DNA from: Spartobacteria bacterium
Lineage (GTDB): Bacteria; Verrucomicrobiota; Verrucomicrobiia; Chthoniobacterales; UBA10450
Direction of reading: 5' to 3'
Length of the DNA: 64,000 nt
Assembly: GCA_003167555.1 (NCBI GenBank)
Contig: PMSN01000012.1
Coordinates: forward strand, 62,001 to 126,000
In this document: piece by piece, positions 12,150-52,357 of the stretch
How positions within the stretch are numbered: the stretch's first letter is position 1
How the letters are laid out: every line of letters starts with the position of its first letter
The notes under the pieces: generated by a model
The model's input: only the letters and a program-made list of their open reading frames with translations
What the model was told of the DNA's origin: nothing
Databases searched by the model: none
Made by a program: the position numbers and the translations under genes

Positions 12150-13640
12150 ATGAGGGTTGCGCTCTGTGCCGTCGTTGCGCTTGTCGCGAGTTTCTCCACC
12201 ACCGCGCGCGGTTACATTCTCGAAGGCAAGAGCTGGCCGAGTGGCACCGTCATCGTCGTGCAATTGAGCCTCGGAAATGCGGGCCGCACCCTCCAGGACG
12301 GCAACACCAACTGGAACGACGCGGTCGCTCCTGTCGCCGGGATGTGGAACCAGCAGATCGGGCGCGTGCAGGTCGCCAACGTTCTGAACTCACCGGTGCC
12401 CGCCGTCTCAGGCGATCATCTGAACTCGGCCGTCTTCTCGAGCACCGTTTACGGTCAGTCCTTTGGCGGGAGCACGCTCGCGGTGACCTACTATTCCTAC
12501 ACGGGCTCGACCATGGTGGAAGCGGATACGCTCTTTAACCTCGCGCAAAATTGGGATTCCTACCGCGGCCCGTTGCAATTCATCGCGCACGGACCGGCCA
12601 TCGCCGATATCCGCCGCGTTTTTCTTCACGAGATGGGCCATGGGCTTGGGCTCAATCATCCGGATACCGGCGGACAAAATGTCGTCGCGGTGATGAATTC
12701 CATTATGAGCAACCAGGAAGTGCTCTCGAACGATGACATCTCGGGCGGGCAATTTCTTTACGGCCCGCCGTTGCTCCCAACTCCGACGCCTACTCCCACG
12801 GCAACACCGACACCAACTCCGTCCGCTACGCCAACTCCGACGCCCACCACATCGCCAAGCCACCTCGCCAATATTTCGACGCGCATGCGGGTCGGTGTGA
12901 GCGACAACGTGCTCATCGGCGGTTTCATTGTTAAAGGGACGCAGCCGAAGAAATTAATTTTGCGCGCGATCGGTCCCTCGCTCACGGCGATGGGTGTGGC
13001 GAATGCGCTGGCCGATCCCGTTCTCGAATTGCACGACTCGACCGGCGCCGTCATCGCCTCCAACGACGACTGGCAGGACAGTTCGCAATGGAGCCAGATC
13101 CAGGCGAGCGGCATCGCGCCGACGAGTCAGTATGAATCGGCCATGATCGTTTCGCTGGCGCCGGGGAATTATACCGCGGTCGTGAGCGGATACGGTGGCG
13201 GGCAAGGCGTCGGCCTGGTCGAGGCGTATGAATACGACACGAACGCGACGAGGCTGGTGAACATTTCCACGCGTGGCCGGGTGGAGACTGGCGATGGCGC
13301 GATGATTGGCGGCTTGATCGTCCAGAGTGGCGCGGCCAAAAAAGTAATCATCCGCGCGCTCGGTCCGTCGTTGGGCACCGGGCCAAATCCAGTCGCGGGA
13401 GCCTTGGCCGATCCGATTCTCGAATTGCGTGACGGCAGCGGCAATTTGCTCGCGGTGAATGACGATTGGGGCAACAGCCCGCAGGCCGCCGACATCGTCG
13501 CGACCGGGGTGCCTCCGACGAACAATTTGGAGTCGGCGATCATCGCTACGCTCGGCTCGGGTAATTACACGGCCATCGTCCGCGGGGCCAACAACACCGC
13601 CGGCGTGGGCCTGGTGGAAGTTTTCGATCTCGATCCATGA
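12150..13640 (+). CDS. Secreted matrixin-like metalloprotease with tandem C-terminal repeats
   Basis: The ATG at 12150 is chosen because it starts a signal peptide (MRVALCAVVALVASFSTTAR); the open frame continues upstream to 12012 without family features. The catalytic part has HEMGHGLGLNHP, the metzincin zinc motif HExxHxxGxxH, followed by a VMNSIM Met-turn-like segment. A Pro-Thr linker of about 30 residues follows. The C-terminus has two ~120-residue repeats, each starting ANISTR/VNISTR, with an IRAxGPSL core and a GVGLVE end. It is likely a secreted, surface-retained protease whose repeats bind a surface or substrate; the repeat function is inferred. A second exported protein follows 72 bp downstream. 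Confidence 0.8.
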   Translation: MRVALCAVVALVASFSTTARGYILEGKSWPSGTVIVVQLSLGNAGRTLQDGNTNWNDAVAPVAGMWNQQIGRVQVANVLNSPVPAVSGDHLNSAVFSSTVYGQSFGGSTLAVTYYSYTGSTMVEADTLFNLAQNWDSYRGPLQFIAHGPAIADIRRVFLHEMGHGLGLNHPDTGGQNVVAVMNSIMSNQEVLSNDDISGGQFLYGPPLLPTPTPTPTATPTPTPSATPTPTPTTSPSHLANISTRMRVGVSDNVLIGGFIVKGTQPKKLILRAIGPSLTAMGVANALADPVLELHDSTGAVIASNDDWQDSSQWSQIQASGIAPTSQYESAMIVSLAPGNYTAVVSGYGGGQGVGLVEAYEYDTNATRLVNISTRGRVETGDGAMIGGLIVQSGAAKKVIIRALGPSLGTGPNPVAGALADPILELRDGSGNLLAVNDDWGNSPQAADIVATGVPPTNNLESAIIATLGSGNYTAIVRGANNTAGVGLVEVFDLDP

Positions 13641-31911: not shown

Positions 31912-32658
31912 ATGAGCACTCCCGATAAAAAACTGTGGCAGGGCCTGACGGCGGAAACGCGGGCGGCGCTCGCGATGCGCGATTACAGCGCGCAATCGTT
32001 TGCGCAGCAGTTGGCCGGCACGGGCGTTGAAGCAGGCAAGCTTGCGTCGGCGGATCGCTCCAAGGCAGAAGTGCGCGATGCCTGGATTCCAGGGGTGGAG
32101 ATTTTTCCGCGCACGATCCACCCGCAGCGGCATCGCGGCGTCTTCGGCGAATTTGTCCGGCGCGATGAGGGCGTGTTGGCGCGGCTCGGTTTCTGGCCTG
32201 CCCAATGGGCCAACGCGCGCATGTTCGCGCAGACCGCCAAGGGCTTTCACGTGCACCCGCCCAGCATTCCCGATGGAACCGCGGCGGCCGATTGGATGCG
32301 CCGATGTTTTGTCGATGAGCCGGAGAACTATTCGCTCCGCCGATACGCGGACGAGCAATGGGACGTCATGTTCTTCGTCCAAGGCGTGGCCGAAATGATT
32401 TTGCGCGACGGCCGCGAAGGGTTGCCCGCGCGCACGATGCGCCTCTTCGTCGATGGAGACAATCACCGCAGCGCGAACAACGCCGGCATCGTCGTGCCGC
32501 CGGGAGTGGCGCACGCGATTCGGGTCGAGGGCTCGGAAGACGTCATCATGGTTTACGGCACGAGCACATCTTTCAAACCGGAGTTTGAAGGCCGGATCGC
32601 GAGCGAAGCGGAGACGGCCGCATTGCCGGAATCGTGGCAGAGGTTTCTCGACCTGTAG
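31912..32658 (+). CDS. RmlC-like cupin protein, possible sugar epimerase
   Basis: A 248-residue protein 9 bp after the GT2 gene. The region from IFPRTIHPQRHRGVFGEFVR, through FHVHPPSIPDG, WDVMFFVQGVAEMILRDGR and NAGIVVPPGVAHAIRVEGSE, to MVYGTSTSF has the spacing of dTDP-4-keto-rhamnose 3,5-epimerase-type cupins. Proximity to the GT2 gene suggests it alters a nucleotide sugar for the same polymer. The usual RmlC catalytic His-Asp dyad is not obvious, so the epimerase role is tentative. Confidence 0.6.
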   Translation: MSTPDKKLWQGLTAETRAALAMRDYSAQSFAQQLAGTGVEAGKLASADRSKAEVRDAWIPGVEIFPRTIHPQRHRGVFGEFVRRDEGVLARLGFWPAQWANARMFAQTAKGFHVHPPSIPDGTAAADWMRRCFVDEPENYSLRRYADEQWDVMFFVQGVAEMILRDGREGLPARTMRLFVDGDNHRSANNAGIVVPPGVAHAIRVEGSEDVIMVYGTSTSFKPEFEGRIASEAETAALPESWQRFLDL

Positions 32659-32761
32659 CGGCGGTCTATGACCGCCGCCGAATTCTTTTGTAGCGGCGGT
32701 CTCAGACCGCCGAATCTTGTTTTGCAATCCAGCCCATCGGCGGTCAGAGACCGCCGCTACA
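32655..32761. repeat. Multi-unit palindromic repeat, family F (TAGCGGCGGTCT type)
   Basis: Three GTAGCGGCGGTCT...AGACCGCCGCTAC units in tandem and inverted arrangement fill the gap between the cupin and methyltransferase genes. The first TGTAG includes the cupin's TAG stop codon, so the element abuts the gene exactly. Confidence 0.85.
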
Positions 32762-32765
32762 GGGG

Positions 32766-47400: not shown

Positions 47401-47478
47401 TTCAACACGCCGTCGCGGATGCTGGCCGCAGCGCAGTTTCATTCGAATAACGAGGAGCCGTCCCGGTCTAATCCCACA

Positions 47479-49644
47479 ATGAAAAAGTTTTGCATTTTCC
47501 CGGTCATCGCAGCGCTCGCATTTTTTGTCTCCTGCGAGAAACCGCAATCGGAGGACGAAAAGAAGGCTGAAGTCGAGCGCCAGGTGCAGGAACGGCTCGC
47601 GGCTGAGCGGCAGACAGACGAGGCAAAACGCCTTGCCCAACAGCAGGCCGACTTGGACGCGCGTGAAAAAGCGCTGGCTGAAAAAGAAGCCGCGGCGGTC
47701 GCGGCGACGCCAACCGAGGCGCCCACTGTGACAGAAGCGCCCGCAGTGACCGAGGCGGTGCAGGAGACCACGCAGGACACTTCGGAAAAACGCGAGACCA
47801 CGGAGACGTCCGAAAAGCGCTCGGCTGGTTCTTACGGCATGTTTTACCAGAAGCTGGAACCGTATGGAGCCTGGCGGGAAACATCGGACTACGGTTATGT
47901 CTGGCAACCGCGCGAGGCCGAGGCAGCGGGCGGTTGGAGGCCCTACACAGATGGCCGCTGGGTCTATTCCGATGCCGGCTGGACCTGGATGTCGGAAGAG
48001 CCATTCGGTTGGGCCACCTATCATTACGGTCGATGGGTGCGGCTGAGCCGTGTTGGCTGGGTCTGGGTGCCCGGCGATGAATGGGCGCCGGCCTGGGTCT
48101 CGTGGAGAACGAGCAAGGATTACGTCGGCTGGGCGCCGTTGCCGCCGGAAGCGCGCTTCGATCGTCGCAGCGGCATCCGGAACTGGGCGGATAATTATTA
48201 CGACATCGGACCCGACCAATACGCCTTCGTGCCGACAAATGAATTCACTTCGGAGCGCGTCCGGCGCGTCGTCGTTCCAGCTGAGCGGAATGTCACGATC
48301 GTGCTTGAGACGACGAATGTCACCAACATCACCTACACGAATACGACGATCGTGAACGAAGGACCGAACTACGAGGAGATGCGCTCCCGCAGCCAGCGGC
48401 CCATCGAGCGTTATCGTTTGCGGCGGCATGCGGAGTTGGATGGAGCGACGTTGCAGGCGCGGGTTCGCGGCGACGAGATCGACATTTCAGCGCCCGTGAT
48501 AACCAGAGTGCCGGGAATCGATCGACCGCAGAGGGTAAAAGAAACGATCGTTAAAATCGCGATTGATACGGGCTGGAATGCGATCGCCGATCGTTCCGCC
48601 GCGGACCGCGCTCGGAAGAAAATCAAATCGGAAGCCACGCCGCCGCCAAACGCGCCTTCGAAAACATTTGTGAAACCGGAGATAACTCCGAGCGCGCCCG
48701 CGACAACTGCGACGCCGGTAGCGACCGCATCACCTGCCGTAACGGCAACGAAGCCTGCGGTGAGCGCCACTCCTGTCGCGACCGCGACGCCGGTGGCAAC
48801 GGCAACAATTGCTCCGGCCGCCAGCGCGACTGCGTCGGCGTCGCCTCGGGTGCGCCCGGTTCGTCCATCGCCCACGGCTTCAGTCTCACCTGCAATATCC
48901 AGTTCACCGCTGGCTACGGCAACGCCGCGGACAACTCCCACCGCGATTGTGCCATCTCCAACGCCGCGCCCGACAGCATCCGTTTCGCCTCCAGTCACGC
49001 GGCCACTGCCGTCGATCTCTGTAAGGCCGCGTCCGTCGGCAACGGTTTCTCCGATCGCGACTCCCATATTGCGGACCTCCCCGGTCACGGCGTCGCCTTC
49101 TGTCACGCCGACACAACCTGAGGAACAAATTCCTTCCAACCCAAGTTCCGCCGCGCAGAAAGCCGAACTGCAACGCGAGCTGGACGAAATGCGCAAAGCG
49201 AAAACGCTCCAGAACAAATCGCCGGCCGCTCCGGAGCGTCCGGTAACGCCGTTCCCCACTCAGGCGCCACCGCGAGTTGTGCCGACTCCCGCCACCACAC
49301 CGTCGCCTCGGCCAACGTCGCTGCGGTCGACCGAACCGACAGTGAAAGAGCTTCCGGCTTCGACTCCGGTCGCGAAATCGATCGTGACTCCGCGGCCCAC
49401 GCCGCGACCCGCGATTACAACCCCGCCGCCTGTGCGAGAAACCACGACCACCGTGACCACGCCCGTGCCGACGGCGCCGATTCGCAATATTCCCCGGCCA
49501 CCCACTCATGCTCCAGCGAGGGAACCGAACGAACTGAACGCGAGCCCGTCTCCAGCTTCCGCGCCCTTATCGAACGAGGCCAACGCGAGGAACAAACGAC
49601 CGAACGTAAAACCAACGTCAACACCGACGCCCGCGTCCCAGTAG
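47479..49644 (+). CDS. Large lipoprotein with aromatic WRPY repeat domain (DUF6600-like) and Pro/Thr-rich tail
   Basis: ATG 47479 begins a lipoprotein signal (MKKFCIFPVIAALAFFVSCE). The order is: charged helix (KKAEVERQVQERLAAERQTD, ~25-75), a Trp/Tyr-rich domain (~115-265: LEPYGAWRETSDYGYVWQP, GGWRPYTDGRWVYSDAGW, GWATYHYGRWVRLSRVGW, APAWVSWRTSKDYVGWAPL), a beta-rich region, then ~330 residues of Pro/Thr/Val/Ser low complexity. The aromatic domain matches, from memory, DUF6600 proteins. It probably stretches across or out of the envelope. The 3' end meets the convergent ligase gene with 10 bp between stops. Confidence 0.75.
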   Translation: MKKFCIFPVIAALAFFVSCEKPQSEDEKKAEVERQVQERLAAERQTDEAKRLAQQQADLDAREKALAEKEAAAVAATPTEAPTVTEAPAVTEAVQETTQDTSEKRETTETSEKRSAGSYGMFYQKLEPYGAWRETSDYGYVWQPREAEAAGGWRPYTDGRWVYSDAGWTWMSEEPFGWATYHYGRWVRLSRVGWVWVPGDEWAPAWVSWRTSKDYVGWAPLPPEARFDRRSGIRNWADNYYDIGPDQYAFVPTNEFTSERVRRVVVPAERNVTIVLETTNVTNITYTNTTIVNEGPNYEEMRSRSQRPIERYRLRRHAELDGATLQARVRGDEIDISAPVITRVPGIDRPQRVKETIVKIAIDTGWNAIADRSAADRARKKIKSEATPPPNAPSKTFVKPEITPSAPATTATPVATASPAVTATKPAVSATPVATATPVATATIAPAASATASASPRVRPVRPSPTASVSPAISSSPLATATPRTTPTAIVPSPTPRPTASVSPPVTRPLPSISVRPRPSATVSPIATPILRTSPVTASPSVTPTQPEEQIPSNPSSAAQKAELQRELDEMRKAKTLQNKSPAAPERPVTPFPTQAPPRVVPTPATTPSPRPTSLRSTEPTVKELPASTPVAKSIVTPRPTPRPAITTPPPVRETTTTVTTPVPTAPIRNIPRPPTHAPAREPNELNASPSPASAPLSNEANARNKRPNVKPTSTPTPASQ

Positions 49645-49654
49645 CGACCTTGAT

Positions 49655-52357
49655 TTAGCTGGCGGCGTCCGTGCTGTTGGTGCGTTGATTCGCGAGCGAC
49701 CGCGCGTAGGCCAGCGTGTCGATCGCTTCCAACGTTTTATCACGCCGAATGGCTTTGATGCGGGGAAAGCGCAGCGCCAGTCCGCTCGCGTGTCGCGTGC
49801 TCGGCTGGATCGAATCGAACGCGATTTCGAGCACGGTGTCGGGTTTCACCTCGCGATAACGGCCGCGATTCTTGATCGTCTGTTTTTTGAAATGCTCGGT
49901 CAACTCGGCGATCTCGACATCAGTCAGACCGCTGTAGGCTTTTCCAATCGTGGATAGCTCGCCGGTTTCCTCATCGCGAACCGCGAAAGTGTAGTCGCTC
50001 AAAACATGATTGCGCTTGCCGTGCCCCAGCTCTGCCGCGACGACGACGACGTCGAGTGTGGCCAGTTCCTTCTTTAGTTTGAACCAGAACATTCCGCGCC
50101 GGCCGGGGGAATAAATGCTGCCGGGATCTTTCACCATCAGGCCTTCATTCAACCGGCGGCGCGCGAGCTGGAAAGCGTCTTCGATCTCTTCCGCTGAATG
50201 CGCGGGATAAACTTCCGCGACTTGGAATTGCGGCGGCAACTTTATCTCGCGCAGGCGATCGCGCCGTTCCCGCAGCGGCTTTCGCAGGAACGATTGCCCG
50301 TTTTTCCAAAGCAGATCGAACGCGACGAAAACGACGGGGACATCAGCGGACGCCGCCGCGAATAGATCAGCGCCTTCACTTTTGCGGCCGAGACGTTTTT
50401 GCAGATCGAAAAAGGTGAGCTTCTTGCCCAGCTCGAACGCCATGATCTCGCCGTCGAGAATGATTTCGTCTTCAAACGCCCGGGCTTGCTCAGCCAGCTC
50501 GGCGAACTGGTCCGTCATGCGGCGAAGGTCGCGCGAAAATATTTCTACGCGCGTCGCGCTGCGGTGAAGCTGCGCGCGAATTCCATCGAATTTGTCTTCA
50601 ACGTAGACGGTTGGTGCAGTTCCATCACTTTCTTGCGCGAACCGCGCCCAGATCGATTCCGCTGTCGGCTCCGGACTCGCCAGCATGCATTTGATGGGCC
50701 GGAAGAGGGACAGCTCCGCGTGTTGCAATTCGCCTTTGAGCGCCAGCACGGCTGTTTCGCCGATGTCGCCCAAGAGCATGTTCGCCTCTTTCACATCATC
50801 GAGCGGAGCGGCGAAGGCCGAGGAGATCGCCTCTTCGACCAGGCCTTCGCGCAAGCCGATGCGAAGATCGCCGGTGAGGATCTTGATGACATACTGTCCT
50901 TCGCGCGCCGACAATTTCACCAAGCGTCCCTGGAGAGTCTCGGTTTTCGCCAGCGGCCCGCGCGCTTTGTGCAGCGATTCGAAAAATTCCCGTGAAGCGG
51001 TTAGCGCGAACGGCTCCGGAACCGTCCGGCCTTCGAGCGTTTCCAAAGCGGTCTTGCCTGCGTCCCCGTGGGAACTCGCGATGCGCCGAAATTCCGTTTC
51101 GCTCAGCTTCGCCGCGCCGAGCAAGGCGCGCTGGATCACCGCCCAGCCCGCCTGAAGTGTGCGCAGATCATTTTGCGGAAATGGTTTCCCGGTGAAATAA
51201 ATCGCGGCAATGGAGAGCTCCGCGGGATCGAGCGTGCGCAAATATTCCGCGAGCAACCGCACTTTCTCGAGCTTGGCCGGTTTCGCAGCGATCACTTCTC
51301 CCACCTCGGCGAACGTTCGAAATTCCGAGTCGATTTCCGTCGACGATTCGCGCGCCACCGGGATAGTGCTCGCGCGGAACGTTCCGAGCGTTAACTCGAG
51401 TTGGTTGTGGCCGGTCAGCGCCCACGCTTCCACGCCGCGATCGCGCAGATCGCGCGCGAACTCGGTCGCAAATCCATGCAGCGTCAGGACGCGTTGCGGC
51501 TGGACCAGTTCCACATAGCGCAAGAGATCGGAGTAATCCGCGTGATCCGAGAGCGGAAACGCCGCGTCGACCTGATAGCGATAGACGGCGTTCTGATCGA
51601 TCGCCCAGCCGCTGATCATCGCGACACGTTTGTTCCGAATTCTCTCGAGCATCTGGGAACGGTTAGCGCTCGGCGGACAAATCAAGACCTTGCCCTCGAC
51701 CGCGTCCGCCTTGTAGCGCTCGTATTCGCAAAACGATTGCCCGAATTGCTCGTAGATCCGCGTCATCTGATGGACGGAGCCGTGCAGCATCGGCTTCAAT
51801 CCCGCCCCGGCAAGCGAGCAAAGAATTTCCTGCGCTTTGCCTAACGAATAGCCGAGCAGCACCGGGACGGCGCCGCTCTCGAGCGTATCCTGGCAAAATG
51901 CCACGATCTGGCCGACGACTTCGTCCGTCGGCGGCAGGCGATAGCGGGGCAAACCGTAAGTGGTTTCCATGATCAACGTCTCGGCCGGCCGCCATTCCGC
52001 CGGCTCGGCGGAGCGGCCGGGACGCAGTTTGAAATCGCCGGTGTAAAGGAGCGAGCCGCTCGCGGTCTCGAGAAAGAACTGGGCCGAACCGAAAATGTGA
52101 CCGGCTGGAAGAAGCGTGAGATCGAGGCCGCGAATGGCGGTGCGCTCGCCAAAGGGAACAATGTGCTCGTGGCGCTTTCCCGGGAGGCGCGCCTGCATGA
52201 GACGCGCGGTTCGCTCCGAAACAACGATCTCATCATGAGCGGCGATGTGATCGCTGTGCGCATGCGAGACGAACGCGAACGGTTTTCGGTCCCATGGATC
52301 GAGCCAAAGATCCTCGTTCGGCAGATAAATGCCGCGCTCATAACGGACTTTGATCAC
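49655..52357 (-). CDS. MBL-fold nuclease fused to ATP-dependent DNA ligase
   Basis: One 900-residue frame from GTG 52357. Residues ~1-325: metallo-beta-lactamase nuclease of the ligase-associated exonuclease type, with SHAHSDHI (His32, His34, Asp36, His37), LLPAGHIFGSAQFFLE, LLYTGDFKLRPG and FPLSDHADYSDLL. Residues ~350-880: ATP-dependent DNA ligase with an N-terminal helical domain, nucleotidyltransferase motif I EDKFDGIRAQ (Lys589), LDGEIMAF (motif III), VFVAFDLLW, GLMVKDPGS (motif IV), MFWFKLKKE (motif V), then an OB domain. In other bacteria these are two neighbouring genes of a DNA repair cluster with a DEXH helicase and a phosphoesterase; neither partner is here. Confidence 0.93.
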   Translation of the reverse strand: MIKVRYERGIYLPNEDLWLDPWDRKPFAFVSHAHSDHIAAHDEIVVSERTARLMQARLPGKRHEHIVPFGERTAIRGLDLTLLPAGHIFGSAQFFLETASGSLLYTGDFKLRPGRSAEPAEWRPAETLIMETTYGLPRYRLPPTDEVVGQIVAFCQDTLESGAVPVLLGYSLGKAQEILCSLAGAGLKPMLHGSVHQMTRIYEQFGQSFCEYERYKADAVEGKVLICPPSANRSQMLERIRNKRVAMISGWAIDQNAVYRYQVDAAFPLSDHADYSDLLRYVELVQPQRVLTLHGFATEFARDLRDRGVEAWALTGHNQLELTLGTFRASTIPVARESSTEIDSEFRTFAEVGEVIAAKPAKLEKVRLLAEYLRTLDPAELSIAAIYFTGKPFPQNDLRTLQAGWAVIQRALLGAAKLSETEFRRIASSHGDAGKTALETLEGRTVPEPFALTASREFFESLHKARGPLAKTETLQGRLVKLSAREGQYVIKILTGDLRIGLREGLVEEAISSAFAAPLDDVKEANMLLGDIGETAVLALKGELQHAELSLFRPIKCMLASPEPTAESIWARFAQESDGTAPTVYVEDKFDGIRAQLHRSATRVEIFSRDLRRMTDQFAELAEQARAFEDEIILDGEIMAFELGKKLTFFDLQKRLGRKSEGADLFAAASADVPVVFVAFDLLWKNGQSFLRKPLRERRDRLREIKLPPQFQVAEVYPAHSAEEIEDAFQLARRRLNEGLMVKDPGSIYSPGRRGMFWFKLKKELATLDVVVVAAELGHGKRNHVLSDYTFAVRDEETGELSTIGKAYSGLTDVEIAELTEHFKKQTIKNRGRYREVKPDTVLEIAFDSIQPSTRHASGLALRFPRIKAIRRDKTLEAIDTLAYARSLANQRTNSTDAAS

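Follow-up and report, generated by a model that had tools for sequence, protein, structure and literature searches.

A nuclease-ligase fusion of the Verrucomicrobiae in a genome that has lost the helicase and phosphoesterase partners by in-place deletion

Here, we describe a gene of a Spartobacteria bacterium that joins a metallo-beta-lactamase (MBL) nuclease and an ATP-dependent DNA ligase in one chain, in a genome where the Lhr-core helicase and the phosphoesterase MPE have been deleted. The gene lies in the window, the whole stretch of 64,000 nucleotides that was analysed. The reading that best accounts for it, to which we give a probability of roughly 0.7, is that of a two-module cut-and-seal enzyme that originated in the bacterial nuclease-ligase-Lhr-MPE cluster, has descended vertically and has recently lost its partners by deletion. 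The N-terminal MBL/beta-CASP module would trim or open a damaged nucleic-acid end, and the LigB-type ligase, held on a flexible tether, would seal the resulting nick with ATP. As the helicase and the MPE endonuclease appear to have been deleted recently in this lineage, the fusion would now act without them. We infer a DNA substrate, coupling between the cutting and the sealing, and a pathway that repairs DNA damage.

The gene is a single intact frame of 900 codons that starts with GTG and contains no internal stop, and its features are as follows.

49655..52357, minus strand: nuclease-ligase fusion gene, 900 aa (open frame; full-length orthologues in family and class; dN/dS)
51404..52357, minus strand: MBL/beta-CASP nuclease module, residues 1-318 (TIGR04122, RMMBL, fold alignment)
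52247..52264, minus strand: motif II HAHSDH (H32, H34, D36, H37), identical in all V-type rows covering the site
51326..51403, minus strand: flexible inter-domain linker of ~25 residues, at about residues 319-344 (pLDDT <50; stand-alone homologues end here)
49682..51325, minus strand: LigB-type ATP-dependent DNA ligase module, residues 345-892 (PF04675, PF01068, PF04679; fold match)
50825..51325, minus strand: ligase DNA-binding domain PF04675, residues 345-511 (Pfam DNA_ligase_A_N)
50072..50686, minus strand: ligase adenylation domain PF01068, residues 558-762 (Pfam DNA_ligase_A_M)
50591..50593, minus strand: catalytic lysine K589 in motif I EDKFDGIR (alignment)
49736..50011, minus strand: ligase OB-fold PF04679, residues 783-874, with motif VI RFPRIKAIRRDK near its end (Pfam DNA_ligase_A_C)

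A sequence-only reading of the window had recognised a complete MBL nuclease and a complete ligase in this 900-residue frame, and the domains, the motifs and all catalytic residues were indeed found. Its view that this is one gene also stands, since full-length fusions occupy the same locus throughout the family and across the class Verrucomicrobiae. Most of 58 relatives carry the full-length fusion, as do nearly all of 62 genome-contig loci (almost exclusively from close relatives, some cut by contig ends), and a frameshift, chimera or assembly join is thereby ruled out. In all 34 long family loci the gene is flanked by aroA, cmk and plsC on one side and by orf224, STAS-domain-like, PP2C-like, grpE and dnaJ genes on the other, some of these names having been given by eye from the sequence. 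The fusion gene in the window lies on the strand opposite to its neighbours on both the aroA/cmk/plsC and the grpE/dnaJ side, and is thus probably transcribed alone. The nearest congener copies are up to 86% identical. A search for phage copies gave no match, and among the best 30 plasmid places listed the annotated ones are separate genes. The fusion has probably been inherited vertically at a fixed chromosomal locus. Adjoining the fusion is a 741-aa ORF (47419-49644) whose second half is long, of low complexity and rich in Pro, Thr, Ala and Ser; it was detected in only 13 of the 34 family loci, though both flanks of the locus are conserved.

The ligase module has the composition of LigB-type enzymes (PMC10140301), with a PF04675 DNA-binding domain, PF01068, PF04679 and the motif I lysine, and motifs III-VI are present. 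TIGR04120, the NCBIfam model of bacterial cisplatin-response ligases, matches residues 348-886 with 307.5 bits, under the equivalog cut-off of 400, and the fold matches are archaeal and eukaryotic DNA ligases, the best of them archaeal (Z 38.9). The lysine K589 is invariant in 31 aligned fusions and is substituted in the dead-ligase cases described below. In the AlphaFold model of the fusion (mean pLDDT 88) two ordered modules are separated by a disordered linker, with pLDDT <50 at model residues 318-339, and a pTM of 0.53 leaves the relative placement of the modules undefined.

The nuclease module is matched by TIGR04122, the NCBIfam model of ligase-associated exonucleases, at residues 7-315 with 238.6 bits, under the equivalog cut-off of 325, and by RMMBL (Pfam) at residues 268-312. 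It carries the residues that define a beta-CASP MBL nuclease, namely motif II H32/H34/D36/H37, motif III H87, motif IV D108, motif A E131 and motif B H272, and these catalytic residues, together with H294 of motif C, are conserved in the alignment. Its fold matches are KH-CPSF, CPSF-73 and TTHA0252 (Z 29-32), with archaeal KH-CPSF aligning over residues 1-318 at Z 31-32, and among solved nuclease structures the DNA nuclease SNM1A ranks first by sequence search. Motif C is His in all aligned rows and not the Val of SNM1-type nucleases. CPSF-73 binds metal through its motif C His, SNM1 nucleases carry Val there, and a Val to His change in SNM1A left both activity and substrate choice unaltered (PMC7458816); H294 thus suggests a two-metal CPSF-like site and is compatible with either a DNA or an RNA substrate.

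Which parts of the module are kept was surveyed in 384 genomes of the phylum, each at least 90% complete. Of these, 96 carry a TIGR04122-type nuclease, which is canonical (over the cut-off) in 21 and divergent in 75. The divergent nucleases (~109-251 bits) all belong to the window's class and form a clade of their own with support 100/100; they are fused in 40 genomes and stand alone in 35, with lengths of ~325-420 aa and one 600-aa open frame. Every one of the 55 genomes with a PF04675 ligase also has the nuclease, and the PF04675 ligase, Lhr-core and MPE were found in none of the 35 genomes with the stand-alone nuclease. Lhr-core and MPE are both present in 28 of the 40 fusion genomes and both absent from the other 12, and overall they occur together in 36 of 37 genomes, where the Lhr-core count leaves out long Lhr proteins (~1,400 aa or more) and takes in three partial matches adjoining an MPE; these association counts and their Fisher values ignore relatedness. 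With phylogenetic control, the comparison of fusion state with Lhr presence, which offers few independent pairs, gave a median p of 0.5. The fusion adjoins Lhr and MPE in five genomes of one family (f17) and in G329, and elsewhere the partners are mostly dispersed.

The sequence-only reading had placed nuclease and ligase in one polypeptide derived from the four-gene cluster and separated from its partners, which agrees with these data. Its suggestion of a streamlined repair enzyme was half right: both partners are still present in 28 of the 40 fusion genomes, so the fusion did not take their place, and here they were deleted only later. Trimming specifically of 3' ends, for which it had proposed an assay, is not supported by these data.

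Fused and stand-alone forms intermingle in the nuclease tree, with 8-9 changes, of which at least five are forced by well-supported branches. In three genomes (G057, G276 and G338) a dead-looking ligase is fused to a nuclease with intact residues. The catalytic Lys is Gln in G057, and in G276 and G338 it is Leu or Arg, the motif III Glu is Thr and the OB domain is absent. G057 is moreover the sister of the stand-alone nucleases of G041 and G050. Dead ligases within fusions, and the position of G057, support the view that the stand-alone nucleases probably arose by ligase loss from fused ancestors and not by repeated fusion. A tblastn search with fused ligases at E 0.01 found no remnant of a ligase next to the stand-alone nucleases. 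The opposite case is G407 (L126, G407:C19:1-6000), at a contig end, in which the nuclease is decayed and the ligase motifs look intact. It is the only fusion with decayed nuclease metal ligands (H87 to Asn, H272 to Arg), and it belongs to the same family as two 0.9-Mb reduced genomes.

Taking the nested retention together with the dead ligases beside intact nucleases, what these sequences appear to capture is a known fusion amid the step-by-step loss of a repair module in which the nuclease is retained longest. We lean slightly towards the stronger proposition that the nuclease is the functional core and that the Verrucomicrobiae dismantle the module in a fixed order, in which Lhr and MPE would go first and the ligase half next, through decay of its active site and truncation, until only a nuclease remains that works on its own. 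The stages of dismantling (full set, fusion only, dead-ligase fusion, nuclease only) reveal which part stands alone and predict which single mutants should show a phenotype. In the window's genus the same fusion is found both in species that have the helicase and MPE and in species that lack them, which offers a ready comparison of DNA-damage tolerance.

Frequent loss of the ligase while the nuclease remains indicates that the nuclease does not need coupling for its role, and the motif C His, with best nuclease folds that are RNA-processing, leaves room for an RNA substrate. One may ask whether the nuclease is mainly an RNA-processing enzyme, with the ligase a separable and dispensable appendage kept by linkage. 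The invariant H294, the top fold matches to archaeal KH-CPSF, CPSF-73 and the RNase-like TTHA0252, the 35 genomes that keep the nuclease alone and the dead ligases still fused in three genomes are all in keeping with this. We nevertheless consider it unlikely, as both halves of live fusions are under purifying selection: measured against copies from its own genus, the gene has a dN/dS (Nei-Gojobori) of 0.06-0.08 in the nuclease half and the ligase half alike, values that are approximate because dS exceeds 1. The nuclease accompanies the ligase in 55 of 55 genomes, and in related clusters the ligase lies with the helicase and MPE. SNM1A leads the sequence search among solved nuclease structures, and its substrate choice was unaltered by the change of Val to His at motif C (PMC7458816).

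A cut-and-seal enzyme that persists without its partners is also to be weighed against a relic, that is, a fusion no longer used once the helicase and MPE are gone and bound to decay. The recent scars of Lhr and MPE in the window's genome and the later loss of the ligase in other lineages would fit such a course. Its probability is small, however, given that the gene is undamaged and has congener copies of up to 86% identity, that 12 of the 40 fusion genomes keep the fusion although both partners are absent, and that dN/dS is low in a pair of genomes that both lack the partners (G312-G139; 0.07 in the nuclease half and 0.18 in the ligase half).

That neither neighbour of the fusion is a helicase or phosphoesterase had been noted from the window, and this holds genome-wide. 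A search of the proteome for the two partners, proposed at that stage, found neither in the draft of 29 contigs: the best match to Lhr-core (TIGR04121) has 62.8 bits against a cut-off of 850, and MPE/PdeM (TIGR04123) has no match. The genus includes seven further genomes; an Lhr-core-like helicase is present in five of them and an MPE in six, and in most congeners the two lie at dispersed loci, on contigs other than that of the fusion. The Lhr and MPE loci of one congener (G003) were located in a 633-kb contig (C23) of the window's genome (G000). What remains at the Lhr locus is the first 20 codons fused in frame to the last ~28, MRMQPAATSRALERRLHPRL|EDPASAIERIYREMDAKVESAATQGAAI*, with ~2.53 kb missing relative to the congener, 4 bases shared at the junction, and 89% and 86% DNA identity in the two aligned pieces. 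At the MPE locus the flanks align on both sides and the first ~30-32 codons are recognisable (LVAHEILLDGRLAFFHQHERWLAVADLH), while ~277 bp of different sequence stand in place of the catalytic body. The scar loci are ~290 kb apart, both inside the contig, at about 240.1-240.4 kb and 530.2-530.3 kb of C23. Lhr and MPE were thus lost by in-place deletion at two loci and not through an assembly gap, and the loss is genome-wide and secondary, and to all appearances recent. The alternative that the partners are encoded elsewhere, which had been put forward from the window, describes most congeners, whereas for the window's genome the genome-wide searches and the scars at both syntenic loci rule it out. 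That an incomplete metagenome assembly merely mimics the loss, as a draft of 29 contigs might suggest, is highly improbable, because two loci ~290 kb apart are affected, each flanked on both sides within the 633-kb contig, the Lhr ends meeting in frame over 4 shared bases and the MPE keeping ~32 codons before the ~277 bp.

Two kinds of repeat were encountered in the window's genome. A dispersed, REP-like palindromic repeat of ~80 bp, matching on both strands, lies at about 32650-32762 of the window (G000:C7:94650-94762) and gave some thirty or more genome matches in the MPE-flank search. The first ~800 bp (L202:3225-4030) of a large gene beside Lhr in G003 belong to a large paralogous family with dozens of matches across the window's genome (~63-92% identity), e.g. 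at about 13470-13621 of the window.

The architecture is already known, and the gene described here, with an RMMBL module N-terminal to DNA_ligase_A_N/A_M/A_C in one chain, belongs to the published RMMBL-LigB fusion type. In 2023, 13 metagenomic proteins from the Antarctic Dry Valleys with an RMMBL nuclease N-terminal to a LigB-type ligase were described (PMC10140301), so that both the architecture and its solo occurrence are on record. In one of these fusions the ligase half closed nicks in DNA using ATP, and the nuclease half proved insoluble. What the LigB-nuclease-Lhr-MPE module does biologically is, according to the same paper, not known. We found no report of nuclease activity for any member of the fusion family. 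The sequence-only reading had allowed that the fusion might prove common and already characterised, which is largely the case, as fusions are spread widely through the Verrucomicrobiae and ligase data have been published.

Compared with the canonical cluster (TIGR04122, TIGR04120, TIGR04121 Lhr-core and TIGR04123 MPE/PdeM, as on the Comamonas plasmid NZ_CP106882), the nuclease and ligase are homologous and in the same order at ~31% identity. There, however, they are separate genes accompanied by Lhr-core and MPE, whereas the window's genome has them fused and is without both partners, and in the tree the nucleases of the Verrucomicrobiae group separately, as sister clade to the canonical ones (support 100/100). 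On the Haladaptatus plasmid NZ_CP111040 (L199, 3965-6802) the order is reversed relative to the fusion, ligase then MBL nuclease, and no helicase or MPE is annotated alongside. SNM1/Pso2 nucleases (SNM1A, Apollo, Artemis) share the MBL/beta-CASP superfamily and detectable sequence similarity with the fusion nuclease, but carry Val at motif C where the latter has His. No member of the SNM1 family is known to have a fused ligase.

Closest to the present gene are the fusions of Opitutus terrae and the Dry Valleys, which have the same domain order and similar length and, compared by description and architecture only, show no structural difference. The Dry Valley proteins were aligned by their authors to O. 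terrae OTER_RS15935, and in O. terrae, according to the citation of Ejaz & Shuman (2018) in PMC10140301, the fusion occurs with the operon present. None of the Dry Valley fusions examined is in an Lhr/MPE operon configuration, and neither is the present gene. In that report the absence of partners concerns the neighbourhood, whereas in the window's genome it is genome-wide and marked by deletion scars. What is added here is this apparently recent, genome-wide loss of both partners, with its scars, and a nested retention that seems to centre on the nuclease.
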